Source of the DNA: a virus
Length of the DNA: 64,000 nt
Virus record (IMG/VR): IMGVR_UViG_3300006117_000001
Span: 1-64,000 of that record
Strand: one strand, 5' to 3'
The notes under the pieces are model-generated. The model made no database searches. It had not been told where the DNA came from and worked only from the letters and a program-made list of their open reading frames with translations. Made by a program: the position numbers and the translations under genes. Below, one piece after another: positions 498 through 51,612 of the stretch (the first letter of the stretch is position 1; each line of letters starts with the position of its first letter).

Positions 498-526
498 CTA
501 ATACGCAAAATTCCTAGTTTTTGCCC
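498..526 (-). promoter_or_regulatory. Phage promoter P1: GGGCAA-N17-TATTAGT
   Basis: Minus-strand GCGTATTAGT at 506-497; -10-like TATTAG at 503-498, -35-like GGGCAA at 526-521, spacer exactly 17. The eighth base after TATTAG (490) is the A of the downstream ATG, predicting a leaderless transcript. Confidence 0.75.
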
Positions 527-531
527 TTAAA

Positions 532-783
532 TCAACGACTTGGACCATTAATTATTTCAGTAAATTCCCTTGCCCAATCCTGCCAAGTTCCGTATGTACT
601 AGGGTCTGGAATGGGGTAAACAGCAAAAGCCTCAGAATTAAGTAGGTTAAATGCTCCTAATTGCCAATTCTCTTCGGAGGCAAACTCAATGTTCTTTTGA
701 CCGTAGTAAATAGCCAAGTTGCCATTCCAGTCGTCCCAGCTCATATAGTCTGGAAGGCAAGGAAAAAACTGCTGAAAACTCAT
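532..783 (-). CDS. Hypothetical small virion-cluster protein
   Basis: 83 residues rich in Trp and Tyr (DYMSWDDWNG, YGTWQDWAREF), no membrane segment. The stop is 6 bases from the -35 element of P1 and the start follows the stop of the gp10-like gene directly, so it is translated as part of that operon. Aromatic-rich small proteins at this place are common in phages with adaptor/hub clusters; function unknown. Confidence 0.75.
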   Translation of the reverse strand: MSFQQFFPCLPDYMSWDDWNGNLAIYYGQKNIEFASEENWQLGAFNLLNSEAFAVYPIPDPSTYGTWQDWAREFTEIINGPSR

Positions 784-2934
784 TTAAGGTCTTTCGTCCC
801 CAAACTCAGCCGTAATCATATTTCGACCCATTTCAAAATTACCATCAATTTCGTTAGACTCAAACTTTAAACGAATTAAACGGTGCTCAACACGCAGGTC
901 GATTTTACCAGTATCTTGGGTAAAATAGTATGGTCCAGAGTTTTCTTCGTTTTGCCCACCAGCAAACTTACGACCCAAAATGGTTAGTGCCATTGTACCA
1001 GATTGTAAAAAGTTTGGCTCAATACGGCGTAGATGCATGCGGCGGTTTACACCCACCAAATTATCACCCGACGGACTACCAGTTAACCAGCTTATATCAC
1101 TAGTTGTAATAGTAGAATAGATAGCCTCTTCAGTATTTAAAGTGATCATATTAAGACCAAATTCATGCTGCCAAATTGAATAGCCGCCAGTTACGCTATA
1201 CACTGTTGCGCCAGCAATAGGGCTTGGAGAAATTGTTTTATTAACGGTAACTAATGTAACACCTGGCGTTCCAATGGTGGTGTTAAAAATGTTTTGGCTA
1301 GTTACAACTCGATAAATAGCAGATTGTGGATTGGTATCAGATGACACATAGCTACCAGGGCTAAACACCGGTGTCAAATCGCCAGCAACGTAAAATTGAT
1401 TAATAGCCGGTGCTGGTAAACTAGCGGGGTGGTTAATAACATAATGTGCTTGGTTATACTGCGGATTATATTCCCAACCAGCCCAAATAGGTGTTGGGAA
1501 TAGCTCGGTAGTATATCCACAAGAACGACGCGCACCTACTGCAGAACCAGCATCGTACCAAAGTTGATCTTTGACGTTGTAGATAATAGCATCAGTACAT
1601 TCTGTTGCTGTACCGCGGGGATAAAAAAACCAAATCTCGTTGTACCTTGGAACCTTAGTAGCCCAAACTTTTTGTCGTTGTTCGTAATTAAGGTTGTTAA
1701 ATAGCCAGTTTACGTTTTTATCGTTTGGTAATACTTTGACGTTACCATTGTATAAATAGAAACGGTCAACACCCATCCAGAAAAAGATACCGTCCATCTC
1801 CACAACTGCATTAGAAGACATGATGGAGATTTGGCTTGAAACAATATCGTAATTCCAATAAAACTGAGTTGCTTGTGAATTAAAGGAAACACGAATAAGA
1901 GAGTCCGTAGCCCAGAACAAGCCAGATGGCGAGGCAGTACCTCCACGCATTGGCAAACCCTTGACGATTTTAGAGCTTGCCACGTTGACTTGGTTTGCTA
2001 ATGGACCGTTCCAATCATAAAAGTTTTGATTGGTATACGTAGAATCTACGTTGTTATTTGCAATGAAGCCATGTGAGCCATATACAAAAATAAATGGATA
2101 CAATACGCACACACCACCATCAACGCTAATGGGTTTGTAGGTGGGGTTTTGGCCCTCACTATCACAAAGGCCAGTGAAATAATAATCATTATCATTATCT
2201 GGCAACACATTACCAACCAATACCTGAGTGGCCACACCATTGTCAATATTAACTAGGTTTAAACCTGGGTGGGCAAAACACGCTAGATTACCGCCTTGTG
2301 GACTAAACTGTGCGTCAAACTGCCAATCATTACGATATGGGCCGTTTTGTGGATCGGGTGTAAAAATGCTGCTGTTTAACCAGATTTTACTAATTGTTCC
2401 CGCTGGTGCTGCAGGGGTAAATGTAATGGTAGTAGTATTTGTTGGACTACCTGTGTAAACCGAAGTACTAATTGTGTAGACTGTTGGTGTACCAGTTTGG
2501 CTGATAATAAAAGTCTTAGTTGGTGCAAAAGTAGTTGTTGCATTACCGGGGACAACTACTTGAGTTGTTGTATTTGATGTTACATTGGCAAATACAGAAC
2601 CAGGCAAAAAGTTAACAACAAATGGACCACTACCTGCACCATAAGATGTGCCAGTAGTAAAAACATCTAAAGTTTCTGCGTTACCAGCAAAAATATAGTT
2701 AACACCATTATATGGAATGGCAATCATGCCACGGTAGATACCGTTAAATGCTGTAAAAATGGCTTTGTAGCCACCAATCTTTTTGGGGTCACCACGCTGA
2801 AAACGACACCATACACCATCAGTATATTGGTCGTTTTGAAATACTGTACCGTCGCGTTTAATCCCAGCCGGTATTGCTAGGCTGTAAATTGATGTATATT
2901 GCGAGGTATCTTGTTGCTGATTATCAGCCGGCAT
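784..2934 (-). CDS. Tail hub / packaged-DNA stabilisation protein, gp10-like
   Basis: 716 residues. The N-terminus (about 40-56, GVWCRFQRGDPKKIGGY) and the repeated blade-like segments (MDGIFFWMGVDRFYLYNG, NEIWFFYPRG, IYNVKDQLWYD) are what one sees in P22 gp10-type beta-propeller tail hubs; the C-terminus has a beta-rich domain ending in ITAEFGDERP. P22 gp10 is about 470 residues, so this is longer, with a Thr/Asn-rich insertion at about 105-190. It abuts its neighbours (stop/start touching at 783/784 and 2934/2935). Likely the lower collar of a short tail. Assignment is by pattern and context, not alignment. Confidence 0.65.
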   Translation of the reverse strand: MPADNQQQDTSQYTSIYSLAIPAGIKRDGTVFQNDQYTDGVWCRFQRGDPKKIGGYKAIFTAFNGIYRGMIAIPYNGVNYIFAGNAETLDVFTTGTSYGAGSGPFVVNFLPGSVFANVTSNTTTQVVVPGNATTTFAPTKTFIISQTGTPTVYTISTSVYTGSPTNTTTITFTPAAPAGTISKIWLNSSIFTPDPQNGPYRNDWQFDAQFSPQGGNLACFAHPGLNLVNIDNGVATQVLVGNVLPDNDNDYYFTGLCDSEGQNPTYKPISVDGGVCVLYPFIFVYGSHGFIANNNVDSTYTNQNFYDWNGPLANQVNVASSKIVKGLPMRGGTASPSGLFWATDSLIRVSFNSQATQFYWNYDIVSSQISIMSSNAVVEMDGIFFWMGVDRFYLYNGNVKVLPNDKNVNWLFNNLNYEQRQKVWATKVPRYNEIWFFYPRGTATECTDAIIYNVKDQLWYDAGSAVGARRSCGYTTELFPTPIWAGWEYNPQYNQAHYVINHPASLPAPAINQFYVAGDLTPVFSPGSYVSSDTNPQSAIYRVVTSQNIFNTTIGTPGVTLVTVNKTISPSPIAGATVYSVTGGYSIWQHEFGLNMITLNTEEAIYSTITTSDISWLTGSPSGDNLVGVNRRMHLRRIEPNFLQSGTMALTILGRKFAGGQNEENSGPYYFTQDTGKIDLRVEHRLIRLKFESNEIDGNFEMGRNMITAEFGDERP

Positions 2935-4197: not shown

Positions 4198-4200
4198 ATA

Positions 4201-5885: not shown

Positions 5886-5886
5886 G

Positions 5887-6054
5887 TTATCGTCCGCGAC
5901 CAGCGGCCTTTTTCATTACTGTTTTGGGCAAGTTGGGTTTAGCCTTGCCAGCCTTAATAAACTCTTTACCAACCTTCTTTGGTATGCCGAGAGTTGATTT
6001 GCCGGCAGCTGCGGCGTACATTGCCTTCATTTGCTGTTCGGATTTGATTGGCAT
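5887..6054 (-). CDS. Small basic phage protein
   Basis: 55 residues, [20 protein letters not shown] followed by [13 protein letters not shown] and a Lys/Arg tail ending GRGR. This is a recurrent small protein in environmental phage genomes (pattern K.E.Q..M.AA..GKS..GIP..VGKEF), function unknown. Start ATG 6054-6052 overlaps the stop of the Lys/Gly-rich gene by one base (TAATG). Confidence 0.75.
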
Positions 6055-6743
6055 TATGAGCAAGTCCCGCCAGTGTTCATCTTTTTAGCTTTACCACCCT
6101 TTTTCATTGCAGGTGCGGCTGGCGCAGCAGGAGGCATAGCAGGAGGCATAGCAGCTGGCGCAGCAGCTGGTGCGGGTGCTGGGTTCATACCACCTTGGTT
6201 TACAAACTGAGATTGCTGAGCTGGTCCAAGATACTTCATAGCATTTTTGGCACGTTCCAGCATACGACGACGTTCCATATCATTGGCAGATCCTTGACCA
6301 ATTCCACCAGGTAGGGCATTTTGCATAGCAGCTTGTTGTAAACCTGTGCTACCGCCATCAGCCATTTTCTTAACAGCTTTGCCACCTTTTTGTAATTTAG
6401 TAGCTTTAATATCTTTGGTTTTTTCGATGTTATCTAGATCGCCAGCTTTTTTCTTGGCGCCATAAACATTATCTACTGAACCACCAGTTTTATATTTACG
6501 GACAGTGCCGACTGCCTTTTTGGCACGGCCACCTTTTTTCAAGGTAGACAGATCCGTTTTCTCACCAGGATGCTCTTGTTTATCGTGAATGGCAATCGCC
6601 TTTTTCACTATGGCTTTATCTTGGGCAATGTCAGCAGTATCAGTGACTTTACGATCGCGCTTAGTGTAATTGCTTACCTGCGTCTGAACCAAGCCGCCTT
6701 TTTTAAAACATTGCATTTTTGGTAGTTTTTTAAAATCGTCCAT
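6054..6743 (-). CDS. Lys/Gly-rich protein with KGG repeats, [10 protein letters not shown] start
   Basis: 229 residues, highly basic, with KKGG(R/K)AK or KTGGS repeats about every 25-40 residues and an Ala/Pro-rich stretch near 180-215. The first ten residues ([10 protein letters not shown]) are identical to those of the gene at 48852-49142. Basic, low-complexity composition suggests a DNA- or capsid-associated virion protein, which is inference. The start has an AGGG seven bases upstream and lies 23 nt after the predicted +1 of P2. Confidence 0.65.
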
Positions 6744-6773
6744 TTCTGTCCCTGTAGGTTATTCCTATATCTA

Positions 6774-6802
6774 CTAATACGCTAAATCAAGCGTTTACGC
6801 CC
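6774..6802 (-). promoter_or_regulatory. Phage promoter P2: GGGCGT-N17-TATTAGT
   Basis: GCGTATTAGT at 6782-6773; TATTAG 6779-6774; GGGCGT 6802-6797; spacer 17. The -35 element begins in the stop codon (TAG) of the GIY-YIG gene. Followed by AGATATAGG, the same sequence as after P8 at 48142. Predicted +1 is A at 6766. Confidence 0.75.
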
Positions 6803-7395: not shown

Positions 7396-7396
7396 A

Positions 7397-7918: not shown

Positions 7919-7939
7919 TTTTACTCCTTACTCTGTGCC

Positions 7940-7948
7940 ATTATAACA
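7940..7948 (-). promoter_or_regulatory. Host sigma70-like extended -10 promoter for the lysozyme
   Basis: Minus strand reads TGTTATAATGG: a perfect TATAAT (7945-7940) with the extended TG one base upstream. No clear -35. Predicted +1 falls about 7 bases on, just before AGTAAGGAGTAAAAATG of the lysozyme gene. Unlike the other operons here, it lacks the GCGTATTAGT element. Confidence 0.5.
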
Positions 7949-7964
7949 GGGCTCAAATTGGGGT

Positions 7965-21138: not shown

Positions 21139-21591
21139 TTAGGAGTTTGTTAAACCAGAACCGTATGGAGTAATTGTGCCGTTGATGTTACGTGGTGTGT
21201 AAGTTACGCTAAATGTACCAACTGCGCTTGCGCCAGCTGTATAGCTAACTGCTACGTCAGATGTACCAACGTTTGCCAAAAGGGCAACTGCAGCAGAACC
21301 TGAAGCAAAAGTGATTGTGTTTACACCAGCAGCGTCGGACAATGTGCCAACTGCTGTACCAGCAACGGTAACGTTTGTTGCACTAGGTGTGCCAGCCGCT
21401 GTAGTAACATAGTCACGTACGTTAGCGATGATTGAACCAGCTGGTAGTACAACAACTGTAGCTACGCCACCAACGATAGGGGCTTGTACTGTGCATTCTG
21501 CTGCGCCAGTGTTGTCTGGGGCGATTACGCCATTGTTTGTTGGGTTATTGCGCTTGTTGATGCGAATGGGCGCGGTAAATGTGGTTGACAT
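21139..21591 (-). CDS. Small beta-rich virion protein, first gene of the P3 operon
   Basis: 150 residues, Ala/Thr/Val-rich beta protein (VVLPAGSIIANVRDYVTTAA). The motif LPAGSII..V occurs in head decoration-type and stopper-like phage proteins. First gene after promoter P3 with a 92-nt leader, ahead of the fibre genes. Confidence 0.6.
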   Translation of the reverse strand: MSTTFTAPIRINKRNNPTNNGVIAPDNTGAAECTVQAPIVGGVATVVVLPAGSIIANVRDYVTTAAGTPSATNVTVAGTAVGTLSDAAGVNTITFASGSAAVALLANVGTSDVAVSYTAGASAVGTFSVTYTPRNINGTITPYGSGLTNS

Positions 21592-21691
21592 GTTCTGTTC
21601 CTTGGTCTCAGTGGGTATCCCAAGCTGTCTCTGAGTGCGTCCTGCCGGGAAGGGTCGGCGGTCAGAATGGGATTATTCTTCCTCATACTTA

Positions 21692-21720
21692 CTAATACGC
21701 AACGGGCAAAAAATCCGCCC
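21692..21720 (-). promoter_or_regulatory. Phage promoter P3: GGGCGG-N17-TATTAGT
   Basis: GCGTATTAGT at 21700-21691; TATTAG 21697-21692; GGGCGG 21720-21715; spacer 17. The -35 overlaps the stop codon of the HNH gene. Predicted +1 is G at 21684, leaving a leader of about 92 nt with small inverted repeats (CTCAG/CTGAG) before the gene at 21591. Confidence 0.75.
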
Positions 21721-25489: not shown

Positions 25490-25930
25490 TTAGTCTACAA
25501 ACGCTTTCATTTTCTGCGCAGCCTCAAAAGACTTAATGCGAGAAATGACTTCACGTGCTTGGATTGTGATAAACACCACAGGGGCGCCTTCATCATCCGG
25601 ATTAACAACAAAACGATCACCACCGTACTTAATTGTTCTAACCAAATCGCCTTCTTTACACCACGGGCCTTCAATCCAAGGCTCAAGGTTATCTGGCGAC
25701 TTATATGCTAGAGGGCCAATTTGGCGTACTTTAGCTACAGTCTCATTGAAACGTAACGTTTGTTTGGTTTCATCTACTAGTATGATGCCACCTTTGCTAG
25801 TGTTCTTTTCTCGGCGTAACTGCACCAATACTCGGTCCCCAGCAACATCAATTCCAGGGTCAATCTCAGGAAAACATTCTAGTTCTGATCTTGTATCTGG
25901 CTCGTCCCTACTACTTAAATCAAATGCCAT
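25490..25930 (-). CDS. GroES-like co-chaperonin (Cpn10 / T4 gp31-like)
   Basis: 146 residues. After a 28-residue lead it matches Cpn10: GDRVLVQLRREKNTSKGGII (compare GDRV.VK..E.E..T.GGI.L), then AKVRQIGPLAY, a KEGDLVRTIKYGG segment and a beta end. GGIILVDETK corresponds to the mobile loop region that binds GroEL. Located in the head-assembly cluster, so it may help the host chaperonin fold the capsid protein, as gp31 does in T4. Family likeness is clear; function is inferred. Confidence 0.75.
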   Translation of the reverse strand: MAFDLSSRDEPDTRSELECFPEIDPGIDVAGDRVLVQLRREKNTSKGGIILVDETKQTLRFNETVAKVRQIGPLAYKSPDNLEPWIEGPWCKEGDLVRTIKYGGDRFVVNPDDEGAPVVFITIQAREVISRIKSFEAAQKMKAFVD

Positions 25931-25950: not shown

Positions 25951-26142
25951 TTACAGATCTTCTTCGTCTTCCCTCAAAATTTCGTCAATAATGCCTAATA
26001 CTTCTTTAAAACCTTCAAATCGACCAACTAAACGCTGGTAATCATCAAAAGAGTTGACATTATTTCCAGCGGTGAGGGTTTCCGCCAATTTTGCCTGCTC
26101 ATCGCGCGTTCGCGCAATAATTTCAGAAATAAAGTCCTTCAT
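25951..26142 (-). CDS. Small helical protein, predicted leaderless
   Basis: 63 residues (MKDFISEIIARTRDEQAKLA...EDEEDL), a charged helical hairpin of a type common beside phage head genes. The ATG (26142) is exactly 7 bases past the TATTAG of P4, coinciding with the predicted transcription start, and no Shine-Dalgarno fits in between. Confidence 0.75.
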   Translation of the reverse strand: MKDFISEIIARTRDEQAKLAETLTAGNNVNSFDDYQRLVGRFEGFKEVLGIIDEILREDEEDL

Positions 26143-26149
26143 GTTTTCA

Positions 26150-26178
26150 CTAATACGCTAGCAGAAGAAAATCCGCCC
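26150..26178 (-). promoter_or_regulatory. Phage promoter P4: GGGCGG-N17-TATTAGT
   Basis: GCGTATTAGT at 26158-26149; TATTAG 26155-26150; GGGCGG 26178-26173; spacer 17. Predicted +1 at 26142 is the A of the ATG of the next gene. Confidence 0.8.
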
Positions 26179-26183: not shown

Positions 26184-26408
26184 TTAGTAGAAATTTCCGC
26201 CGCCGATGTCATTTAAGTTCTTATCTGGTCCAACTTTAGAAGATTTAACCTTGTTTTGGTTTAAAACTGCGTTATTTGAACGCTTGCTGCCAGATGTTCC
26301 TTGGTCAATTGTTTTTTCGCCAGGTCCGCCAGCATTTCCTGGTGTTCCAGTCATTTTGTATGTCTTACGGAAACCTAATTCGCCGCCGTCTTGTGGGTTT
26401 TTTGCCAT
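26184..26408 (-). CDS. Small Gly/Lys-rich protein
   Basis: 74 residues (MAKNPQDGGELGFRKTYKMT), apparently disordered, ends DIGGGNFY. Overlaps the portal stop by one base. No family recognised; position suggests a small head or connector part. Confidence 0.65.
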   Translation of the reverse strand: MAKNPQDGGELGFRKTYKMTGTPGNAGGPGEKTIDQGTSGSKRSNNAVLNQNKVKSSKVGPDKNLNDIGGGNFY

Positions 26409-29251
26409 TATTGTGCTCCTGTAGGGGGTGTTTGTTGTGATTCTGGTTGTTGAGTTGCTTGGTTTTGTTCTTGAAACGATTGTTGCTGCATTTGTTGTTC
26501 GTGTTGTTGTTGAGCTAGAGCAGCATCATGTTGTTGCTGAGCTTGTTGCGCCACTTGATCTGCTTGAGCCTTAAATGTGGCTTGTTGCAACGCAATACCA
26601 TGCTGGCGGATATCTTGATCGGCTGCTTGAACCGCATCAATTGCAGACAAATTCTGTTCATGCTCAAGCTGGGCTTGTTGCTGATCCATTTGCGCGCCAG
26701 CTGTAATCATAGCCACACGCTCTTTTGCTGCGTTGTTGATATTGGCCATAGCAATATCGGTAGCATTACGTTGGTTGTCAATGCTGGTTTGTGTTGTGTA
26801 TTTAGCCTGTAGTTCTGCAACTTTTTGCTGTAATTCTGCAACTTTAAGTTGATAGTTTTGTTGAGCTTGTTGCAATTCTGCTTGTAATTTAGCTTGGGCT
26901 TCTTGTGTTTTGCGTTGTGTTTCGGCCATTTGCGTTTTAATAATTGCAGCAGAGGTTGGATCGGCCAATGCGGCATTTTGTTGCTGTTGCTGTTGAGCTT
27001 GAGCAACTTTTTGTGCCAACGCTTGAATTTGTTGTACATATGGGCCAAGATCTTGTTGTGAGTCTTGGTTTACCATTTGGGATGCCAAAGCCAAAGCTTG
27101 TTGGGCCGCTTGATCCAATGGTTTTTCTTGATGCAATTCCAATGTATCGCGCCCACCAGCTGCTTGCGCAACATACCCGCGCATAGATTGCAAGTAATGC
27201 AGTGTTAAATGTTGTTTAAGGTGTTCTAAAGCATGAGGAGCAAAAGTAGGCCCAATAACAGGGTTGCCACCATAAGCTGGGTTATTTGCATATTCGAGGT
27301 GAATTTTAATGTGGGCAATATGGTCTTGATCTGGATATGCTGCGGCGGGTCTACCCATGGTCATAGAAACGTTTTCTAATGCTGGGTTAGACTCATTAGC
27401 ACCTAACGGATTTGGCAATATTTCTTCTGCGTCTGGAACTTTAAGTTGTTTTAAAACACGTTTGTAAACTGCTTGAACGTTAAACATCCCTGGAGGCGCG
27501 GATGTTGCCATTTGTAACAAGGCTTGGTTTTGAGCAAGACGTTGTGTTTCAGAAAAAATGTTAGGATCTGATACAGGTCGAATGTCATTGTTATAAGCAA
27601 AGTCACGAACTTCAATTTCTTCGCCGGACTGATTGTCCATTTCCTGCAAATACCAATGATTGAGTCGCGAAATAATTTTAAGCGACATTGCTTGACTGCG
27701 GTGCAGGCGAGCATGAATACTAGAAAATACTTTAGCACCTTGTTCAATAAGGGCTTGGGTTGTGCCAACAGGCATTTGGCTGTTAGCTTCAGAAATCTTT
27801 TCTTCTGCAGTAGTAACAACGCCTTTAGCTGCGTTTGTCAACCAACCAAGCAAATCAAACAATACTGATGATGGAGGATTGAACGGCATTGGCATTGCAA
27901 TCTTGCGAACATCATCGACCCCCGGACCGGCTTCAACTTCGACTACTTGAGTTGGTTCGATCCTGTCAGATTGCCCACTAACTCGTCCAGTTTTGAGTTT
28001 AAGTAATGTCTGAGAGTTGTTGATATGAGCAGCATCAAGCAAAGCACGTAGAGCGCCAGTGAGAGCAGCAGAGAGACCGCCAATAAGATGGGGCAAGCCA
28101 ATAGCATAAGCACCGCGCCAAGGAATGAATTTGAATTCAACATACCAATCCAGTTTTTCGAGTTTCTCATCATTCGCTTCCCAGTTACGATACAAGGCCA
28201 ACACTTTGTTGCTGGTCTCATCAATAATTAAAATATACGGCGCACGTTTTCCATCGGTAAGGTCATCATCTTCTAAACGTAAAAAGCAAGTGATTTCGTA
28301 AATTCTACGCAAACCGTCAATATTTTTAGAAGGCTCTTCTTTGCCTTCAATTTTTGCGTTGGCTTTTTCAGATTGTGTTTGGTCTGTTAAAGGAGCATCT
28401 GAAGTATATGCTGCGTTTTCCAAATCACGGTAAAATCCAGAATCAATACGTTGTTGATACGTATCTTCTGTAATGTCTTGTTGCTCAGCTACTCGCTGAG
28501 ATGTGTAAAAGTTTGTTGTGGAATACGGCAGGATAATATTATCAATTGGTACCCATTCACAAGTTGGCCTACGCTGTTCGTCATCATAGCGCCATTTTAA
28601 AAATTGTGATCCGCCAAGGGGAAGCTGTGTTAACAACTGTTCCATTTCATCGCGGTATTCTGGAACTTGTTCTGTCAATTGCCAATTTAAGAAATTAACT
28701 TTACGGTTAGAAACTTCTAACTTGCTTAAATTGTCATTACCTTTAATATTTGATTTGACAATGCCATCTGATGGCAATAATTCTTTGGTAGAACTTGCGG
28801 CAAAATCAACACAAGCTTCTGCCATAACAGGGTGTACTACTTTTGATGCACCGTCAAATGTTGCGCCACCAGGGGCGTCTTTTCCAAGTCCTGTACGGCG
28901 CAGTCCTTCTTCGTACTGTTTGTCACGCTGACTACGTGCTTCTTTATCAACGTCGATGTAATCTAAATATTCATTTGCCAAAGAGTCTAAAGTAGATTCG
29001 TCTAGCTCTTCTGCCAAATTGGAATAAAATTCTGGATTTTTAAGCGGGCTTTGTTTTTCTTGGAAATTGACAATTACTGAACCATCTTCAAGTTCAATAA
29101 CTTCTTGCTCGACATCTTCAGGATCTAACCCTAGGGCTTCCTCATAGGCATCCATTTCAGCATCTTGCTGTTTAGCCTGGTCGATATCGTCCTCTCGCTC
29201 TAAACCTGGCAGATTTGCGCCGTTTTGGATTGGTAATATTGGATTTGCCAT
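26408..29251 (-). CDS. Portal protein
   Basis: 947 residues, long for a portal. N-terminal acidic region, then the conserved block GATFDGASKVVHPVMAEACV...LPSDGIVK, a central DEQRRPTCEWVPIDNIILPY and NGLRRIYEITC-like wing segments, and FKFIPWRGAYAIGLPHLIGG before a long stem helix. From about 690 a very Gln/Ala-rich coiled coil forms a barrel-like extension. Matches SU10-type portals in pattern. The portal is the dodecameric DNA channel at one capsid vertex. Confidence 0.85.
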   Translation of the reverse strand: MANPILPIQNGANLPGLEREDDIDQAKQQDAEMDAYEEALGLDPEDVEQEVIELEDGSVIVNFQEKQSPLKNPEFYSNLAEELDESTLDSLANEYLDYIDVDKEARSQRDKQYEEGLRRTGLGKDAPGGATFDGASKVVHPVMAEACVDFAASSTKELLPSDGIVKSNIKGNDNLSKLEVSNRKVNFLNWQLTEQVPEYRDEMEQLLTQLPLGGSQFLKWRYDDEQRRPTCEWVPIDNIILPYSTTNFYTSQRVAEQQDITEDTYQQRIDSGFYRDLENAAYTSDAPLTDQTQSEKANAKIEGKEEPSKNIDGLRRIYEITCFLRLEDDDLTDGKRAPYILIIDETSNKVLALYRNWEANDEKLEKLDWYVEFKFIPWRGAYAIGLPHLIGGLSAALTGALRALLDAAHINNSQTLLKLKTGRVSGQSDRIEPTQVVEVEAGPGVDDVRKIAMPMPFNPPSSVLFDLLGWLTNAAKGVVTTAEEKISEANSQMPVGTTQALIEQGAKVFSSIHARLHRSQAMSLKIISRLNHWYLQEMDNQSGEEIEVRDFAYNNDIRPVSDPNIFSETQRLAQNQALLQMATSAPPGMFNVQAVYKRVLKQLKVPDAEEILPNPLGANESNPALENVSMTMGRPAAAYPDQDHIAHIKIHLEYANNPAYGGNPVIGPTFAPHALEHLKQHLTLHYLQSMRGYVAQAAGGRDTLELHQEKPLDQAAQQALALASQMVNQDSQQDLGPYVQQIQALAQKVAQAQQQQQQNAALADPTSAAIIKTQMAETQRKTQEAQAKLQAELQQAQQNYQLKVAELQQKVAELQAKYTTQTSIDNQRNATDIAMANINNAAKERVAMITAGAQMDQQQAQLEHEQNLSAIDAVQAADQDIRQHGIALQQATFKAQADQVAQQAQQQHDAALAQQQHEQQMQQQSFQEQNQATQQPESQQTPPTGAQ

Positions 29252-29291
29252 AAATGAGATTAAATAAAAATTGAAAAGGCCCTTATTCTAA

Positions 29292-29320
29292 CTAATACGC
29301 TAAAAAGGGATATTCCGCCC
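29292..29320 (-). promoter_or_regulatory. Phage promoter P5: GGGCGG-N17-TATTAGT
   Basis: GCGTATTAGT at 29300-29291; TATTAG 29297-29292; GGGCGG 29320-29315; spacer 17. Predicted +1 is A at 29284; a leader of about 33 nt precedes the portal ATG at 29251. Confidence 0.8.
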
Positions 29321-29330: not shown

Positions 29331-30776
29331 TTATTGGGCGTAAGGATTTGCAAAACGTTTACGGGAATCATCATCTGCGTAGTCATAATCCCTTGCTGGC
29401 AGGGGGTCAAGTTGTAACCAGCCAGCATCTCTGAGATACCTTAAACCCTGAGAAAGGGCGTCCACATAGTCATCATGCCCTCCAGCTTCGGGAAAAGAGC
29501 ACACTTGGCGCAAAAAGCGTTTTGTCCAGCTAGCAAACTCCCCTTTTTGGTTTGGGTCTTCTGGGATAAACACTTTGCCCTTGGCAACAAGCGGGGCCAC
29601 AATGTTTAAGCGCTGCACCTTGTCAGCTCTGCCAGGGTTGTATCCTTGGACAGGAACTCCAGCTCCTCTAAGTTCTTGAATAAGAGAAATACCAGCTGAT
29701 TTATCTTCCATTAAAATTAAATCAGCTTTTCGCCCCTTGCCAAATTCGTTATCTGCTCCGTAAACAACTTCTTTAAAGTCGTCAATTACTTTTCGGCGCA
29801 ATTCTGGATAAGAAAGATGTTCATCCCAGCAATCTAACAAGATGGCGCAGACACCGCCGTCAATTTGTTCAAAAATTCCCCAAACTTCGCAAGCAGTGGG
29901 GTCGTTTATAGTTTTTTCGCTAGTGGCCGGATCATAGGAAGCCAATACATATTCCAAAGTAGGAGTTGGCTTGTTGGCTGGCCACATCTTAAACATTTTG
30001 CGTTTGATAATACCCGCAGCTTCTGGGTCAAGGATCTCACCATAAATCTCTTGGCGGCCAATATCGGTGCCATCGTAGGTTTCTAGCTGTTTAAAAAATG
30101 TTTCGGAGAGGTTCGCCCGATTGTCATACGAGGACGCGTTGGCGACAAAGACGTCTCCACCGACTTTGCCTTCGTTAAGGTCAACGATAAGCTCTTTTGG
30201 CTTTGGCGTGGTGGTAATGATTTGCTGGACTCGTGGAATCCTAGGATCGCGCAAACGGAGGGTAAACTGTACTCCATCGTATGCTTCGTCAATATACTCA
30301 AAGGCGCACAGCTCGTCAAACCAGGCTCCATGATATTGCTTACCACGATAACGTTCTGGCTCGGAGGCGGGGATTCCTTGAATAAGGGATCCATTGGTAA
30401 GGGTAATCTCAAAGAGGGACTTGTTGTAATCTCTGATAAGGCTTTTGGGTATGATATTGAGAAGGCCGGAGTCTCCTTCGAAACAAGTTGCACGGATATC
30501 ATTAGAGGTTGGGGCGGTAACAAGCCAGCGAGTGCGGTCAAAGGTAGCAGCCCGAATGCCAATCCAATGGCTAGCAGTGTGTGTTTTGCCTGATCCACGA
30601 CCGGCAAGCATAAGAAACGTATCATACTCCCCATCTTCGGGTTCTTTTTGGTGGTCAAGTGCTTGGGCTTTCCATTTAGCCATCCAAGCCATTAGTTCAA
30701 ATTTTTCTTTAGGCCAATGTTTACGTTGCTCTAAATACTTCTGTAAAAGTTTGTGTTTTTCTTGATCTAAAGACAC
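29331..30776 (-). CDS. terL: Terminase large subunit
   Basis: 481 residues from GTG 30776. ATPase: Walker A GRGSGKT at 59-65, Walker B region GAWFDELCAF. Nuclease: SYDPATSEK (Asp of motif I), LILMEDKSAGISLIQEL (motif II), HDDYVDALSQGLRYL (motif III). Packages DNA into the prohead using the portal. AAGGA lies 9 bases before the GTG. Overlaps the Hint gene by 10 bp in another frame. Its likely small-subunit partner is 19 kb away on the opposite strand. Confidence 0.95.
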   Translation of the reverse strand: MSLDQEKHKLLQKYLEQRKHWPKEKFELMAWMAKWKAQALDHQKEPEDGEYDTFLMLAGRGSGKTHTASHWIGIRAATFDRTRWLVTAPTSNDIRATCFEGDSGLLNIIPKSLIRDYNKSLFEITLTNGSLIQGIPASEPERYRGKQYHGAWFDELCAFEYIDEAYDGVQFTLRLRDPRIPRVQQIITTTPKPKELIVDLNEGKVGGDVFVANASSYDNRANLSETFFKQLETYDGTDIGRQEIYGEILDPEAAGIIKRKMFKMWPANKPTPTLEYVLASYDPATSEKTINDPTACEVWGIFEQIDGGVCAILLDCWDEHLSYPELRRKVIDDFKEVVYGADNEFGKGRKADLILMEDKSAGISLIQELRGAGVPVQGYNPGRADKVQRLNIVAPLVAKGKVFIPEDPNQKGEFASWTKRFLRQVCSFPEAGGHDDYVDALSQGLRYLRDAGWLQLDPLPARDYDYADDDSRKRFANPYAQ

Positions 30777-31738
30777 GGAATAAATCCTTCCCCGACTAAA
30801 ATTGTGTTGTCTTCGCCATCTGTTTCGATGTGAACACAGTTTTGTGGTTCAATTTCATAAATTTCCCGAACTAGTCTCCAAGTTTGTCTAACCTTAATAG
30901 GTTCGGGGGTTTGTTCTTGCGTTAATTGTAACTTAGTTTTGATAAACAACGTGTAATACTTTTTTGTTCTGTCGTATAACATTTTAGTTTTGCAACCCAA
31001 AGACTCAGCTAGGTTTTGAACTTGGGTGACGCTGTGTTTAGTCTTCCAAGTAAACCTAAAAATTTGGTTTTTCTTATTAAACTGCTTGGCTTTACTATGC
31101 AAAATCCCACTTAGCAGTTCTTGACGCTGCTCTGGATCAGAAAACAAATAGTTATTGGGTATTTTTGTTGGAACCAAAGGGATTAAATGTGAAACTACTG
31201 TGGGCGTTGTGGTAAACGCCGCTTTTTTATTGGGGATATACCCATGGCTTTTAAACTTTTCCCTTACAAATTCATCAAAAATTACAGGCGGTTTCAAAGT
31301 CCCGTCTTTTTTGCGATTAAAAAACCAAAATCCAAAAATGAAAGGAGGTACTGGTAAGGTCTGATGGGGAAATTGAATGGCCCCCGTAGTGGGCACCGAG
31401 TACACCATGCGATTGTTTCGGTGGGTGAGGGGCGAGTTTACCAATTCTGAGATTGGTGTGGGTCGTAATGGTCTTCTAAATTTCCTAACTCCCTTGTATT
31501 GCCGAACCCTTGCTCGGTATTTTGGAGTTTCTAATGGAAGCTTTAAATGTATATCACCCGCTACGGTAAGGTGGTCGTGAAACTGCACCTCGTAACAATT
31601 TTTGGCTCGGTATTGTTGAGCCAATTTAACTTTAACTGGTTTTCCAGTTCTATCAAAAACTATGTCTCCTGCACGAACATCGCAAGCTAGTTTCCAATAA
31701 TCAAGGGTTAATACCTTCTCTGTTGCCAAAATTGCCAT
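30767..31738 (-). CDS. Stand-alone Hint protein with decayed LAGLIDADG domain (intein relative)
   Basis: 323 residues. The start is an intein block A/B equivalent: KVLTLDYWKLACDVRAGDIV FDRTG, then CYEVQFHDHLTVAGDIHLKL with the block B His. A LAGLIDADG-like middle follows (FIFGFWFFNRKKDGT and ELLSGILHSKAKQ) in which the catalytic acidic residues are missing. The end is a block F/G equivalent, NTILVGEGFIPCL, where the usual His-Asn is Pro-Cys. Residue 2 is Ala instead of the nucleophilic Cys. It should be unable to splice. Adjacent to terL, a frequent intein host gene; function unknown. Confidence 0.75.
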   Translation of the reverse strand: MAILATEKVLTLDYWKLACDVRAGDIVFDRTGKPVKVKLAQQYRAKNCYEVQFHDHLTVAGDIHLKLPLETPKYRARVRQYKGVRKFRRPLRPTPISELVNSPLTHRNNRMVYSVPTTGAIQFPHQTLPVPPFIFGFWFFNRKKDGTLKPPVIFDEFVREKFKSHGYIPNKKAAFTTTPTVVSHLIPLVPTKIPNNYLFSDPEQRQELLSGILHSKAKQFNKKNQIFRFTWKTKHSVTQVQNLAESLGCKTKMLYDRTKKYYTLFIKTKLQLTQEQTPEPIKVRQTWRLVREIYEIEPQNCVHIETDGEDNTILVGEGFIPCL

Positions 31739-32009
31739 AAAAGTTTTTTAGGACCCAATAGTCCAGCCATTTCCCTAACGGAACGCGTATTTTGTTTTGG
31801 ATACCCGCTGGTAAATTTTGAATATTGATGGTGTCTTCTGTAAGCTGCAAACGAAACTGCAAAAACTTACAAGTGTCTTTATCTAATATTTCAGCGGGAA
31901 CATCTACTATTTCCAGATTGTTTAAGTCGCATACCACAACCCGCAAGCCTTTAAACTCACCGATGGCGTTTTCCAACGCACCTTGGATTTGGTATACATA
32001 ATCATTCAT
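31701..32009 (-). CDS. Small hypothetical protein, predicted leaderless
   Basis: 102 residues from ATG 32009 (MNDYVYQIQGALENAIGEFK). The frame also opens with GTG at 32027, but those codons are the promoter element. ATG coincides with the predicted +1 of P6. The C-terminus (PLGKWLDYWVLKNFYGNFGN) overlaps the Hint gene by 38 bp. First gene of the leftward cluster; no family recognised. Confidence 0.7.
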   Translation of the reverse strand: MNDYVYQIQGALENAIGEFKGLRVVVCDLNNLEIVDVPAEILDKDTCKFLQFRLQLTEDTINIQNLPAGIQNKIRVPLGKWLDYWVLKNFYGNFGNREGINP

Positions 32010-32015
32010 ACATTC

Positions 32016-32025
32016 ACTAATACGC
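32016..32025 (-). promoter_or_regulatory. Phage promoter P6: TATTAGT without GGGCGG
   Basis: GCGTATTAGT at 32025-32016; TATTAG 32022-32017. At the -35 distance there is only a T-run. Predicted +1 at 32009 is the A of the ATG. Drives the leftward packaging cluster away from the control region. Confidence 0.65.
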
Positions 32026-32050: not shown

Positions 32051-32363
32051 TGCCACACTTTGCCACACTTCTGCCACACTTTAAATCGCATTTTTGGGCA
32101 AAGTGTGGCAGTAAAAAACCAGTTTAAAATCAAAAGGTTACAAGCGTTTTGCTTAAAAATTAAGCACAAATTGCCACACTTTGTTTCGTTTTTTCCAAGT
32201 CGATACTCTACTATTCTTTTTTCTTTTTTAAAAAATAAAAATAAAAATAGAAAATAAGTGTGGAAGTGTGGCAATTAGGGGTTAAGTCTTTGATATATAA
32301 GGCTTATTGCATTGCAGCAAAGTGTGGAAGAAGTGTGGCAGAAGTGTGGCAATTGCCACACTT
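32051..32363. repeat. Iteron element copy 1 (TGTGGCA array, AT-rich core)
   Basis: Opens with three TGCCACACTT, then an inverted AAAGTGTGGCA, further inverted and direct copies inside, an AT-rich core (about 32213-32257), the block TGATATATAAGG then TTATTGCA, three AAGTGTGG(C/A)A copies in a row and a closing 22-bp perfect palindrome centred on CAATTG. About ten iterons. A near-identical layout is repeated at 38092-38407. Architecture resembles iteron-type replication origins or an operator array. Confidence 0.85.
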
Positions 32364-32528
32364 TCCACATTGTGAAAAAAAAATACACAAACTCATGGTT
32401 GCTCAGGGGCCCGGCCGGCAGGGTAGGGGGTACTTTATTTAGGGGTATCGGTTTTTAGAAAACCCCCCTATAAGCTAAAAAGGAGGGCCATAGCAAATTA
32501 CCGACCCAGCAACCTGGCAGCCAGCCAT

Positions 32529-37296: not shown

Positions 37297-37893
37297 ATGC
37301 GTGTATTAGTAGCGTGTGAATTTAGTGGTACTGTGCGCGATGCTTTTATTAAGGCTGGGCACGATGCCATGAGCTGTGATTTAGAGCCAACAGATCAGCC
37401 AGGGCCTCATTACCAAGGTGATGTATTTGATATTATTGATGATGGGTGGGATTTGATGATTGCGCACCCACCATGCACCCACCTTGCCGTATCTGGTGCG
37501 GCCCATTTTGCCAAGAAACGAGCAGATGGGAGGCAGCAGCAAGGTATTGATTTTTTTATGGCGCTTGCTAACTGCAACATACCAAAATATGCTATTGAAA
37601 ACCCAATTGGGATTATGAGTAGTAATTGGCGCAAACCAAATCAAATCATACAACCTTGGCAGTACGGCCACCGCACTACTAAAGCAACCTGTCTTTGGTT
37701 AAAAAATTTGCCTTTACTTCAACCCACTAATATTGTAGATAAAGGGGAAGTATGGGTGGCTAAAAGCGGAAAAAGAATGTCTAAATGGTTTTATGAATCA
37801 TCTTGCTTGCCGCCGAGAGAGAGAGAGAGAATGCGTAACAAAACATTTCAAGGCATAGCAGACGCTATGGCAGATCAATGGGGAAAATTATGA
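37297..37893 (+). CDS. DNA cytosine methyltransferase-like protein
   Basis: 198 residues (MRVLVACEFSGTVRDAFIKA). SAM-binding start VACEFSG, GHDAMSCDLEPTD, motif IV-like HPPCTHLAVSG (the PPC catalytic Cys) and AIENPIGIM (ENP motif), as in C5 methylases, but it is shorter and lacks an obvious target-recognition domain. Such genes are common in phages. Could methylate phage DNA against restriction, or act on free nucleotides. Confidence 0.75.
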   Translation: MRVLVACEFSGTVRDAFIKAGHDAMSCDLEPTDQPGPHYQGDVFDIIDDGWDLMIAHPPCTHLAVSGAAHFAKKRADGRQQQGIDFFMALANCNIPKYAIENPIGIMSSNWRKPNQIIQPWQYGHRTTKATCLWLKNLPLLQPTNIVDKGEVWVAKSGKRMSKWFYESSCLPPRERERMRNKTFQGIADAMADQWGKL

Positions 37894-38472: not shown

Positions 38473-38482
38473 GCGTATCAGT
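38473..38482 (+). promoter_or_regulatory. Phage promoter P10: variant TATCAGT
   Basis: GCGTATCAGT, one mismatch from the common element; no GGGCGG at the -35 distance. Predicted +1 is A at 38489, giving a 17-nt leader with AGAGGAAG before the primase ATG. Confidence 0.6.
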
Positions 38483-38505
38483 TCAGGTAAGCAAAGAGGA
38501 AGAAG

Positions 38506-40830
38506 ATGTTAGAAAAACCAGCAGCACTACCAGTTAGTTTTGAGAATATCCCGGTAGATCTAAAGATGATCCCCAGGTTCTGCCTATGGAAATACACCCT
38601 TGTTGGTGAGGGAGACACACAGAAATGGTCTAAACTACCAGTCCAGCCTAGTGGTAAAGCAGCAAAATCAACCGATCCAGCAACCTGGACAGACTTTTTT
38701 ACAGCCCAAAAGGCCTATGAGAATGGCAACTTCTCAGGCATAGGCTTTGTCTTTACTGGCGATGATGACCTCATTGGCGTAGACATTGACGATTGCAGAG
38801 ACCCTATTAGCGGAGATCTGAATGAGCTAGCTACCAACATCATAGCCAACGTCAAGGGATATTGCGAAATCAGTCCCTCAGGTACTGGTGTCAAGATATT
38901 TACCAGAGCAAACCTGCAAAATGCCCACGTAGACCACGAAATTGGGTTAGAAGTCTACGCAAAATCTCGGTATTTTACCCTCACAGGCCATAAAATAGGC
39001 GGTGATCTGCCCAGTGAGCCACAAGACCTCACTGCCCATGTGCCCGCCCGCACACTTATCCGTACAAGTTCAGATGATGAGTTTGCTAACTACACACCGC
39101 CAGTTGAAGGTTGGGATCTAGCTCGCGTTGACAATGAGCTTTTAAGCCAATTAGACCCCTCTTGTGGCTACGATGACTGGCTAGCTGTGGGGATGGCCTT
39201 ATCGCACCAATTTGGAGGCGATATAGAGGCTCTGGAGGCTTGGGATAGCTGGTCTTGTGAGCATGGGCAGAACCCAAAATACGTAGCTAGCGGAATGAAC
39301 TCTTGCGCTGCAAAATGGCGCACATTTAAAGGCGGAGGCACCACACTGCGCTCACTGATCTTCAAGGTGAATCAAAAAAAGCTCAAAGCTGCCCTTGATG
39401 CTGGTGAAATTGTGCTCGACATCTCCAATCCACTAGATCATGCCCGCAAATTTCTACAATCCTTGTATGCGATTGAGGGTGGCTTTAAATTAGTACACCA
39501 TGCCCAAGAGTTTTTTGTCTACACTGGGACACATTACAGCTTTATTGAAGAGGCCACAGTGCGCTCCCAGGTGTATAAGTTTTTGGATCGCTGCCAAAAA
39601 CAAGACAAAAAGGGCAATTTAGTCCCATTTAACGCAAATCCTGCGGTGGTTAATGCCGTAATCGACGCATTAAAGTCGATTGTCCACCTTGCTAATGACC
39701 CCAACGGAAGGCCACCAGTTTGGCTAGATGGGTATGCTCAAAACAACCCGCCTGCCAACCAGCTTATCAGTATGACTAATGGATTGTTTCAGATGGATCA
39801 GTTGGTGCTTTATCCGCACTCACTAGGCTTTTTTACTTACAACTCTCTGCCATTTGAATACGACCCACAGGCACAGTGTCCTCACTGGCTCGCTTTCTTA
39901 GATGATGTGTGGGGTAATGACATCGAGTCTAAAGAGTTGCTGCAAGAGTATTTTGGATACATTTTGTCCGGCGATACAGCCCAGCAGAAATTTTTGAACG
40001 TGATTGGTCCGCGTCGTAGCGGCAAGGGCACTATCAACAAAGTGCTCACCGAACTGCTTGGTCAGCACAATGTGGTCTCGCCTCAGATGGAAGAGCTTTG
40101 CGACACGTTTGGTTTGCAACCTTGGATAGGCAAACAGCTAGCATCATTTACAGATGCGCGGGTAACAACCAAGAATGGCGCTGGTGTTGTGTCTCAGTTG
40201 TTACGCATTGTGGGTGGCGACACAGTGACAGTAAACCGCAAGAACAAAGAGGCTTGGAGTGGTTACCTACCAACCAGGATCATTGTGTACTCCAATGAGA
40301 TGTTGCGGCTATCAGAAAACAGTAATGCACTCACAGGCAGGATGTTGGTGCTCACCATGACAAACAGCTTTTATGGCAAAGAGGACGTTGGCCTTGCAGA
40401 CCGCCTGATTGCTGAACTAGCTGGCATTTTTAACTGGGCGTTGCAAGGACATAGCCGCCGCACCAGTAGAGTGGGTCAGCGTTTTGTGCAGCCAGAGTCT
40501 AGCAAGAGCATGGTAGAAGAGATGACTAAGCTGTCTAATCCATTGGCAGAGTTTATTGAAGACGCCGTTGAGTTTGTAGAGGATCATGAAGTCAATAAGG
40601 ACGATGTGTTTGCTTGTTATAAACATTGGGCGATTAAAAAGAATCTACACCCTGGCACAGAGATGTCCTTTAAAACCCGCTTTACTTCTACAACGCAAGA
40701 GTTTAAAGTAAAGACTAACCGCAGACGTACTGCCAATGGATCAGAGTGGACTTATGTGGGAATTAGGCTCAAAGATAAAGCGCAGGCCTTTGTGGATTCA
40801 ATCAGTGAGTTTGAGCGTGAAATCTTTTAA
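38506..40830 (+). CDS. Primase-helicase, P4/D5 type
   Basis: 774 residues. N-terminal prim-pol domain: IGVDIDDCRDPI (metal-binding Asp pair) and SPSGTGVKIF (basic/Gly motif), then a PriCT-like helical part (CGYDDWLAVGMAL...ALEAWDSWS), then an SF3 helicase: Walker A GPRRSGKGT at about 502-510, followed by TDARVTTKNGAG and PTRIIVYSNEMLRL. Synthesises primers and unwinds DNA at the fork. Its gene lies directly after iteron copy 2, as initiator or primase genes often do beside their origin. Confidence 0.9.
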   Translation: MLEKPAALPVSFENIPVDLKMIPRFCLWKYTLVGEGDTQKWSKLPVQPSGKAAKSTDPATWTDFFTAQKAYENGNFSGIGFVFTGDDDLIGVDIDDCRDPISGDLNELATNIIANVKGYCEISPSGTGVKIFTRANLQNAHVDHEIGLEVYAKSRYFTLTGHKIGGDLPSEPQDLTAHVPARTLIRTSSDDEFANYTPPVEGWDLARVDNELLSQLDPSCGYDDWLAVGMALSHQFGGDIEALEAWDSWSCEHGQNPKYVASGMNSCAAKWRTFKGGGTTLRSLIFKVNQKKLKAALDAGEIVLDISNPLDHARKFLQSLYAIEGGFKLVHHAQEFFVYTGTHYSFIEEATVRSQVYKFLDRCQKQDKKGNLVPFNANPAVVNAVIDALKSIVHLANDPNGRPPVWLDGYAQNNPPANQLISMTNGLFQMDQLVLYPHSLGFFTYNSLPFEYDPQAQCPHWLAFLDDVWGNDIESKELLQEYFGYILSGDTAQQKFLNVIGPRRSGKGTINKVLTELLGQHNVVSPQMEELCDTFGLQPWIGKQLASFTDARVTTKNGAGVVSQLLRIVGGDTVTVNRKNKEAWSGYLPTRIIVYSNEMLRLSENSNALTGRMLVLTMTNSFYGKEDVGLADRLIAELAGIFNWALQGHSRRTSRVGQRFVQPESSKSMVEEMTKLSNPLAEFIEDAVEFVEDHEVNKDDVFACYKHWAIKKNLHPGTEMSFKTRFTSTTQEFKVKTNRRRTANGSEWTYVGIRLKDKAQAFVDSISEFEREIF

Positions 40831-49612: not shown

Positions 49613-50029
49613 ATGAAGCAATGCACTAGTTGCAAAGAAATAAAGCCAAAAGAGCAGTTTTTAAAAGATAACAAAAATAAAGACGGTTTGCGTTATGAAT
49701 GTAAACCATGTCATAATTTGCGAAATAGACTTTGGCATAAAAATAATAAAGAACGCGGAAAAAACAATTATTTAAAACGCTTATATGGCATAACTTTGCA
49801 AGAAAAGTTAAAAATGGCAAAACTTCAAAATAATAAATGCGCTATTTGTAATAAAGAATTTGTTGAAGAAGTTGATATTTGCGTGGACCACAACCATGAT
49901 ACTGGAGTAATAAGACAACTTCTTTGCAATCCATGTAATCGAGGGCTAGGACAATTTCAAGATTCCGCGCAAATATTAAAGTCTGCTATAATGTATTTAA
50001 ACAAACACGCTAAAAAGGAAGCTGCATGA
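49613..50029 (+). CDS. Recombination endonuclease VII
   Basis: 138 residues from ATG 49613 (MKQCTSCKEIKPKEQFLKDN). N-terminal CTSC...CKPC zinc finger, then LYGITLQEKLKMAKLQNNKC, AICNKEF, VDHNHDTGVIRQLLCNPCNR (the Endo VII His/Asn site and second Cys pair) and GLGQFQDSAQILKSAIMYL. Resolves branched DNA in T4; stand-alone copies like this can also act as homing nucleases. Leader has a hairpin GCCAGTG/CACTGGC at 49561-49580. Confidence 0.9.
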   Translation: MKQCTSCKEIKPKEQFLKDNKNKDGLRYECKPCHNLRNRLWHKNNKERGKNNYLKRLYGITLQEKLKMAKLQNNKCAICNKEFVEEVDICVDHNHDTGVIRQLLCNPCNRGLGQFQDSAQILKSAIMYLNKHAKKEAA

Positions 50030-51156: not shown

Positions 51157-51296
51157 GTACTTGGTTAATAGCAGCAATGGGTGTCGTGTATTTTGTCGTG
51201 GCGATAGATCAATTTATGAAAGGTGGTATTGGTACCGGCATCATGTTCCTTGGTTACGCCATGGGTAATGTTGGACTCGTCATGGTAGCAAAATAA
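51153..51296 (+). CDS. Small two-pass membrane protein
   Basis: 47 residues with hydrophobic stretches WLIAAMGVVYFVVAI and IMFLGYAMGNVGLVMV. Overlaps the DUF2800 gene by 4 bp. Widespread tiny membrane protein pattern; unknown role. Confidence 0.65.
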   Translation: MSTWLIAAMGVVYFVVAIDQFMKGGIGTGIMFLGYAMGNVGLVMVAK

Positions 51297-51311
51297 CAAT
51301 AAGAGGTACCT

Positions 51312-51569
51312 ATGATGGTGCAATGCTATGGTTCGGAATTTGAAATTCCAGACCAGCTTATAGATAAGTATTTTAAAGATTTTGATGGATTACCAGGAAG
51401 TGGATTACGCGAAAACATTTGCCAAATCAGAGATTCTATTTACGAAATTGTAGATATTGTTGAAGAGGATCCGGATGTTTTGCACGAAGCAGAATACCTA
51501 AAAGACTTTATGCAGGCGCTTGCTATGAAACAAGCATTACAAAATCACGGAATTTTATACGACGCATAA
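51312..51569 (+). CDS. Small acidic protein
   Basis: 85 residues (two adjacent ATGs; MVQCYGSEFEIPDQLIDKYF). Acidic and helical (IYEIVDIVEEDPDVLHEAEY). AAGAGG site. Last gene before promoter P9. Confidence 0.65.
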   Translation: MMVQCYGSEFEIPDQLIDKYFKDFDGLPGSGLRENICQIRDSIYEIVDIVEEDPDVLHEAEYLKDFMQALAMKQALQNHGILYDA

Positions 51570-51602
51570 ATCTCACATGGTGGAATAACAAGTAACAAAT
51601 TT

Positions 51603-51612
51603 GCGTATTAGT
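51603..51612 (+). promoter_or_regulatory. Phage promoter P9: TATTAGT without GGGCGG
   Basis: Exact GCGTATTAGT; TATTAG 51606-51611. Predicted +1 is A at 51619. The 62-nt leader contains a hairpin GTACTGG/CCAGTAC (51631-51657) just before AAAAAGG and the ATG. The transcript would end at the terminator 52217-52252, making a one-gene unit. Confidence 0.75.

Follow-up and report, generated by a model that had tools for sequence, protein, structure and literature searches.

A freshwater phage family appears to redirect host RNA polymerase with a two-protein sigma factor of its own

Here, we analyzed a window of 64,000 nucleotides (bases 1 to 64000 of the 65,558-base phage record IMGVR_UViG_3300006117_000001) in which ten copies of a short element, GCGTATTAGT or a variant of it, stand ahead of genes. 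These ten elements are probably promoters for the host core RNA polymerase acting with a phage sigma factor made up of two separate gene products, a reading drawn from the DNA of the window and its relatives. The freshwater phage family to which the window belongs thereby appears to redirect the polymerase of its host. One piece of the sigma factor, a protein of 189 amino acids (aa), would recognize the element itself; the second, a 101-aa protein, is apparently added later and would serve an upstream box that is found mainly on genes for the particle and for packaging.

RESULTS

The element is real, specific, and placed at gene starts

The window contains nine exact copies of GCGTATTAGT (six on the minus strand and three on the plus strand) and a tenth element, GCGTATCAGT, at 38473-38482, all lying at the positions and on the strands that had been listed in a sequence-only reading of this DNA. 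A dinucleotide model of the window predicts 0.11 copies of GCGTATTAGT, and the reversed pattern does not occur anywhere in the 65,558-base record. A weight matrix trained on relatives, with the window withheld, put the same ten sites on top: nine scored 21-32 bits and the one at 38473 scored 14.2, with the next candidate at 11.4. The first training set still included contigs nearly identical to the window; after 16 near-copies (≥80% identical) were dropped, 150 training sites remained and the ranking was unchanged (tenth site 14.2, next 11.5). Two matches with one mismatch, at 37301 and 41486 on the plus strand, fell outside the top 26 of the matrix and were rejected as elements, as was bare TATTAGT, which is unspecific (23 copies versus about 10 expected). 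In 10 of 10 elements the hexamer (TATTAG or TATCAG) is followed by T, the eighth base is A or G, and the element points at a gene start, as the sequence-only reading had described.

The relatives tell the same story. In 98 loci that were fetched by protein similarity and not by motif, taken together with the window (1.25 Mb), we counted 131 nonredundant copies of GCGTATTAGT, whereas 20 permuted 10-mers gave 1.15 on average and at most 4. Under a generous definition of a gene start, 120 of the 131 lie at one, compared with 10 of 23 control matches. Conservation in relatives and a preference for gene starts over gene interiors, which had been named earlier as checks on the element, are both borne out by these counts. 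We gave no weight of its own to the number of GGGCG-N15-GCGTATTAGT matches across the whole collection (at least 118 stretches): with 15 fixed bases, chance matches are to be expected in a collection of that size, and some of these do look like chance.

The core element covaries with a phage-encoded sigma factor

All three of the Pfam sigma-70 regions 1.2, 2, and 3 score above the gathering threshold in the 189-aa protein, and its predicted fold agrees with the sigma-70 assignment. An hmmsearch comparison with SigA gave an E value of 2.7e-30 over residues 4-177 of 189, and the alignment to a host-type sigma is ungapped over regions 2.3-3.0. Region 4 was not found within this chain, the homology of which stops at residue 177, the start of region 3.2.

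Among relatives, this sigma occurs in a close group, 75-80% identical to that of the window, and a diverged group, 46-54% identical, in both cases where measured. The core element follows this division: in the close-sigma loci (hereafter the window's group), window included, GCGTATTAGT is present in 30 of 30 and TTGCATTA[TG]T in none, and in the diverged-sigma viral loci GCGTATTAGT is present in 0 of 31 and TTGCATTA[TG]T in 29 of 31. The table from which these counts are taken has 64 rows, near-copies included; L042, the match of which equals that of L030 in length and identity and comes from a sister contig, was left out, and L265 was set aside as the bearer of an ordinary full-length bacterial sigma. 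The diverged-sigma counterpart of GCGTATTAGT is TTGCATTAGT, which was missed by k-mer counts and was revealed by alignment of orthologues. At orthologous genes the register of the diverged core to the ATG and to GGGCG is unchanged, and the first base of the hexamer goes from T to C.

A mosaic relative, G003, allows the core and its neighborhood to be told apart. Around gene 21591, a 2.35-kb stretch that includes the promoter shows 90.5% identity between G003 and the window, and a neighboring 1.97 kb shows 95.5%. Within that promoter the leader agrees at 86 of 86 positions, the upstream part with AGGGCG at 54 of 67, the spacer at 7 of 15, and the core at 6 of 10: G003 has TTGCATTATT where the window has GCGTATTAGT, and its sigma is diverged (54% identical). 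Because the cores of G003 and the window each match their own sigma despite such similar surroundings, the core tracks the sigma and not the neighborhood.

We mapped sigma70 residue numbers onto the phage proteins by alignment. At the places of sigma70 Q437 and T440, the window has R104 and E107, the diverged group mostly K and R, and G003 R and R; the constant change is the one at the T440 place, where E gives way to R (to N or Q in two rows). In the relevant passages of PMC2613000, the sigma70 substitutions Q437H and T440I are described as suppressors of a T-to-C change at -12. The sequence-only reading had taken the element for a two-part sigma promoter with unusual hexamers, read by a phage-modified polymerase and with a start 7-8 bases after TATTAG, which fits the presence of a phage sigma gene, the covariation of core and sigma, and the presumed +1 described below.

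Promoter anatomy and possible leaderless starts

Sites with the upstream box share the consensus tAGGGCGgatt-N11-GCGTATTAGT-N5-YAnG. The layout is that of a sigma promoter, with two boxes at fixed spacing and a purine at the inferred +1 within 6-9 nucleotides (nt) after the -10 hexamer, some sites being without the first box. Most likely, the element is an extended -10 (GCG-TATTAG-T) plus an initiator, read by the phage-encoded sigma. Across 159 sites of the window's group, the presumed +1, eight bases after TATTAG, is A in 155, the base at -1 is T or C in every one, and the base at +3 is G in 135. This A begins an ATG in 56 of the 159, and a Shine-Dalgarno-like string precedes it within 20 bases in only 4 of those 56; leaderless mRNAs would be the simplest reading of such sites. 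In the window itself, the ATG coincides with the presumed +1 at 490 (-), 26142 (-), 32009 (-), and 46015 (+), and the other sites have their ATG about 17-125 nt downstream (with that of the 48142 site taken at 48283). The occurrence of an ATG at +1 in about one-third of the promoters had been missed by the earlier reading.

The -35 box marks a class of genes

Also missed was that the -35 box forms a second module, which is used separately from the core and marks one class of genes, although its geometry had been described correctly: GGGCGG, GGGCGT, or GGGCAA stands exactly 17 bp before TATTAG at the elements at 506, 6782, 21700, 26158, 29300, and 48142. Where GGGCG occurs within 40 bp upstream of a core, it does so at a single distance, 20 bp before GCG, in 40 of 40 cases. 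By gene family, GGGC at 20 bp is nearly all or none. Within the window's group, counting loci that were fetched by protein similarity, it was found at none of 99 sites in the box-less families (27 in front of the region-4-like gene encoding the 101-aa protein, 22 primase, 19 DUF2800 nuclease, 19 in the family of gene 31704-32009, and 12 single-strand binding protein [SSB]) and at all 44 in the boxed families (19 in the 48283 family, a tRNA and small terminase operon; 17 portal; and 8 in six small families). The split is repeated in the diverged group, where the pattern also picks up some chance in-gene matches (0 of 49 versus 30 of 32). Fisher p values of 6e-38 for the window's group and 4e-20 for the diverged group are not to be taken literally because neither families nor relatives are independent. 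Left out of these tests were helicase (2/2), DNA polymerase (2/4), and “other” (5/12) sites in the window's group and the 31704-32009 family (3/7), endonuclease VII (0/1), and “other” sites (6/26) in the diverged group.

Some further features accompany the box-less sites. In 17 of 108 box-less promoters, the dyad TTTCACAnTGTGAAA begins 32-33 bp before GCG (center about -41); it may be the site of some regulator. Copies lie at 51571-51585 and 32363-32377 in the window, at 1374 in L258, and at 7074 in L248; in the genomes examined they precede primase and SSB genes and occur in the divergent early region. Loose matches to the dyad (≤3 mismatches) are hardly commoner than in shuffled sequence. 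The leader of the SSB gene (window 51619-51680, plus strand), in which GGGTAGAC...CTGGCCCC...TTGAAGTCCAG is kept in G002, G003, G007, and G010, may be a structured RNA. By eye, a terminator-like hairpin with a T run stands directly before many box-less sites in relatives (for example, L182 at 13741 and L159 at 8288).

A small protein with a predicted region-4-like fold accompanies the sigma factor

Relatives of the 101-aa protein were found in 300 stretches of viral contigs, of which 80 were kept. Pfam Sigma70_r4_2 matches the C-terminal part of 21 of 49 members (best E value, 4.2e-5) and 16 of 25 in a second, partly overlapping set (best, 2.1e-4); PHROG sigma family 1740 matches 10 of 25 members (best, 6.3e-6). 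The model of the window's protein has a mean predicted local distance difference test score (pLDDT) of 77.7, with residues 43-99 well predicted. A helix with the pattern EKxWRxHF, presumably the recognition helix, is present in 143 of 146 rows, the remainder being two that are cut off and one paralogue; the boxes tallied beside it were picked for holding GGG, and their uniformity is partly by construction. Taken together, these data give moderate support to a region 4 assignment, and the protein is likely to be the -35 reader.

In 15 records, the sigma gene and the region-4-like gene were each found in 11 and both in 10, and of the 11 records with the sigma the only one without the region-4-like gene is a 19-kb fragment. 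Other records without one or the other gene also may be fragments. A tblastn search of 50,697 phage records with the region-4-like protein returned no match, and its close match in BFVD is a single 98-aa protein of an uncultured phage (Foldseek E value, 3.7e-7; 40% identity). A second region-4-like open reading frame (ORF), encoding 81 aa with 30% identity, lies at 9033-9275 in L024, about 540 bases before the sigma gene, and was seen at this locus only.

DISCUSSION

The arrangement described above suggests how the phage might take over transcription. Host holoenzyme would transcribe the early genes, among them the sigma gene; a sigma-70 scan of the early region did not locate a host promoter for that gene (14 matches versus 15.6 in shuffles). 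The phage sigma would then displace the host sigma and open promoters by means of the extended -10 and the YA initiator alone, which would suffice for the box-less class: primase, DUF2800 nuclease, SSB, the operon ahead of the large terminase, and the 101-aa protein. The latter would dock at the usual place of sigma region 4, read GGGCGG 17 bp upstream of the -10, and thereby turn on the second class, comprising the portal, the head and GroES-like genes, the tail-side genes, and the small terminase. On balance, we favor the idea that the split sigma serves as a clock. The -10 reader would run the middle genes by itself, and a region-4-like product of one of these genes would add -35 reading and so activate the late genes. 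The two modules would also evolve apart, the -10 element and sigma having changed throughout the regulon in one lineage while the -35 box and its reader stayed fixed, and many of the mRNAs would be leaderless, including, in the window's group, that of the second module.

Several observations weigh against this scheme. The sigma and promoter switch lies essentially on one branch of the tree, and because of this it counts as approximately one event plus the mosaic case. In that case, G003 and the window share R as the Q437-like residue, and not only the core but also the spacer is different. Neither core was found in the diverged viral loci L039 and L291 or in L263, a metagenome-assembled genome (MAG) locus. 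As to the classes, the large-terminase operon is without the box in the window's group (0/19) and has it in 3 of 7 cases in the diverged group, half of the four DNA polymerase sites are boxed, and the grouping into middle and late genes was drawn after the class data had been seen. For the 101-aa protein, the window's own sequence reaches only an E value of 0.022 in Pfam, under the gathering score, and has no match to PHROG 1740; a profile (A2) search of solved structures gave no sigma match, and neither did hhalign against one host region 4. All of the 22 best VIA rows for its model are sigma factors, matched through their region 4 (highest Z, 8.6), but VIA re-aligns Foldseek candidates only, a Z of about 8 can reflect a common arrangement, and Foldseek itself against the PDB gave E values of 0.29 or worse. 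Finally, no covariation ties the helix to the box, because both hardly vary, a constancy that is in keeping with such a link.

We consider the following alternative unlikely. According to it, the phage sigma does read the promoters, and the -35 box is the site of another protein, an activator or repressor, with the 101-aa protein being either unrelated or a factor that works by itself in the manner of MotA. The lack of covariation between the 101-aa protein and GGGCGG and the weak sequence similarity of that protein to region 4 both speak for such a view. Against it, the box keeps the 17-bp spacing that is usual for sigma promoters in 40 of 40 cases, and a phage sigma without region 4 is accompanied by a protein with a region-4-like predicted fold in 10 of 11 sigma-bearing records.

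A very improbable alternative is that the element is read by a single-subunit phage RNA polymerase of the T7 type. The core is indeed long, nearly invariant, and conserved around +1; however, the bipartite layout and the covariation with sigma favor a sigma factor, and no T7-type polymerase was seen among the ten ORFs of more than 600 aa scanned with PHROGs, two of which (940 aa and 618 aa) were without an informative match. A search of seven records with the RNA_pol family also gave no match, but its control failed too, and we do not count it as evidence. That an alternative sigma factor of the host reads the element strikes us as most doubtful. Phages often use host sigmas, but here a change of the phage's own sigma goes with a change of the core, even where the adjoining DNA is 90-96% identical. 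Least credible is an operator or translation-start signal. In its favor, about one-third of the sites (56/159) lie at a fixed distance from the ATG. Against it, leaders of about 17-125 nt follow the other sites of the window, which are oriented in the same way, leaders are likewise found in whole gene families of the relatives, the +1 YA signature is common to leadered and leaderless sites, and the -35 spacing is fixed.

A phage sigma in two pieces would have partial parallels elsewhere. In T4 late transcription, with gp55, gp33, and the clamp gp45, as proposed here, a reduced phage sigma (gp55, region 2-like) reads only a -10-like element, and a second small phage protein (gp33, a beta-flap coactivator), on which late genes depend, holds the position of region 4. 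Unlike the T4 case, the second protein here would be region-4-like, a -35 box is present, and the phage sigma keeps regions 1.2 and 3. SPO1 also has a gp33, which is the partner of its gp34. The part of PMC7892883 that deals with T4 gp33 describes it as structurally unrelated to region 4 and as touching the DNA backbone. In SPO1, as proposed here, phage sigmas drive middle and late genes in turn; according to the relevant portion of PMC9429907, there is a separate sigma for each class (gp28 and gp34), whereas here one sigma would serve both, with an add-on module. Phages phiEco32 and 7-11 likewise encode a sigma whose -10-like motif is short and conserved, and the promoter comes in middle and late versions. 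These are long and short forms of one motif, and the passages of PMC4331800 on them mention no separate -35 box for the phage sigma; the term “region 4” has no occurrence in the main text of that paper.

Outside phages, SigO-RsoA of Bacillus is one sigma spread over two proteins, with sigma2, sigma3, and sigma4 shared between the subunits in the account excerpted from PMC10141391. However, SigO-RsoA is a cellular stress system, and the present case is a phage regulon with promoters both with and without the box of the second module. As proposed for the window, -35-less promoters of E. coli can work through an extended -10 that is read by region 3.0, with H455 and E458 named as the recognizing residues in a passage of PMC2613000. 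The phage promoters differ in having GCG or TTG instead of TGn, and at the place of H455 the window's group has K and the diverged group mostly N. In the open-access papers searched, we found none on a phage split sigma with this combination of features.

If this reading is correct, the family would offer a clean natural case in which -10 and -35 recognition reside on separate proteins expressed at different times, with both kinds of promoter in one genome. It would also provide a natural switch of -10 specificity across a whole regulon, coinciding with changes at those sigma residues to which suppressor genetics in E. coli has pointed. As an orthogonal split sigma with its two classes of promoter, the system could, moreover, be of use in laboratory gene circuits.

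Features of the window and its relatives

The candidate promoters and the two proposed sigma gene products are listed in Table 1.

TABLE 1 Candidate promoters and proposed sigma gene products in the window
Feature	Position	Strand	Details
Promoter, putatively leaderless gene 53-490	490..526	-	-35 GGGCAA 526-521; core GCGTATTAGT 506-497; inferred +1, A of ATG at 490
Promoter, gene 6054-6743	6766..6802	-	-35 GGGCGT; core 6782-6773; inferred +1, 6766
Promoter, gene 21139-21591	21684..21720	-	-35 GGGCGG; core 21700-21691; inferred +1, 21684; leader about 90 nt
Promoter, putatively leaderless 63-aa ORF, then GroES-like gene 25490-25930	26142..26178	-	-35 GGGCGG; core 26158-26149; inferred +1, A of ATG at 26142
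Promoter, portal gene 26408-29251	29284..29320	-	-35 GGGCGG; core 29300-29291; inferred +1, 29284
Box-less promoter, putatively leaderless gene 31704-32009	32009..32025	-	Core 32025-32016; inferred +1, A of ATG at 32009
Phage sigma factor, 189 aa	36411..36980	+	Sigma-70 regions 1.2, 2, and 3, up to start of 3.2; without region 4; proposed extended -10 reader
Box-less variant promoter, primase gene 38506-40830	38473..38489	+	Core GCGTATCAGT
Box-less promoter, putatively leaderless region-4-like gene	45999..46015	+	Inferred +1, A of ATG at 46015
101-aa protein, predicted sigma region-4-like fold	46015..46320	+	Proposed -35 box reader; own promoter box-less
Promoter, gene 48283, two tRNA genes, small terminase 49132	48122..48158	+	-35 GGGCGG; core 48142-48151; inferred +1, 48158
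Box-less promoter, single-strand binding protein 51681-52199	51603..51619	+	Inferred +1, 51619

At 50-32274 and 57067-63957, most long ORFs of the window are on the minus strand; those at 32983-57066 are mostly on the plus strand. Their products include a portal protein, large and small terminases, a primase, a helicase, a PD-(D/E)XK (DUF2800) nuclease, SSB, ribonucleotide reductase, a family A DNA polymerase, a major head protein, a GroES-like protein, and endonuclease VII, and there are two tRNAs. In the operon that begins with gene 31704-32009, ORF 30767-31738 and then the large terminase gene (29331-30776) follow downstream. ORF 30767-31738 (minus strand), the N-terminal part of which matches terminase profiles, has a look that we take to be Hint/intein-like; it ends GEGFIPCL and starts ...LACDVRAGDIVFDRTGKPVKV.

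The nearest named phage is MW202545 (terminase, 55%; portal, 58%), and the corresponding values for Caulobacter phage RW are 41% and 49%. Neither GCGTATTAGT nor the core of the diverged group was found in these two phages, and a search of them for the sigma, run without a positive control, gave no match. RW gp060, the gene after the helicase, was considered as a region-4-like protein and rejected on comparison. Two contigs binned with betaproteobacteria encode the diverged sigma, which is only a hint of a betaproteobacterial host for the family.

Other repeats were noted in the relatives. The palindrome TGTTTAAACA has about seven copies in L256-L257 (G010) and about nine in L262 (G011), all diverged phage contigs. 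In L251-L253 (G007), AGGGTGACAAGGGTGACAA-type strings are repeated, and the 10-mer AGGGTGACAA occurs nine times.

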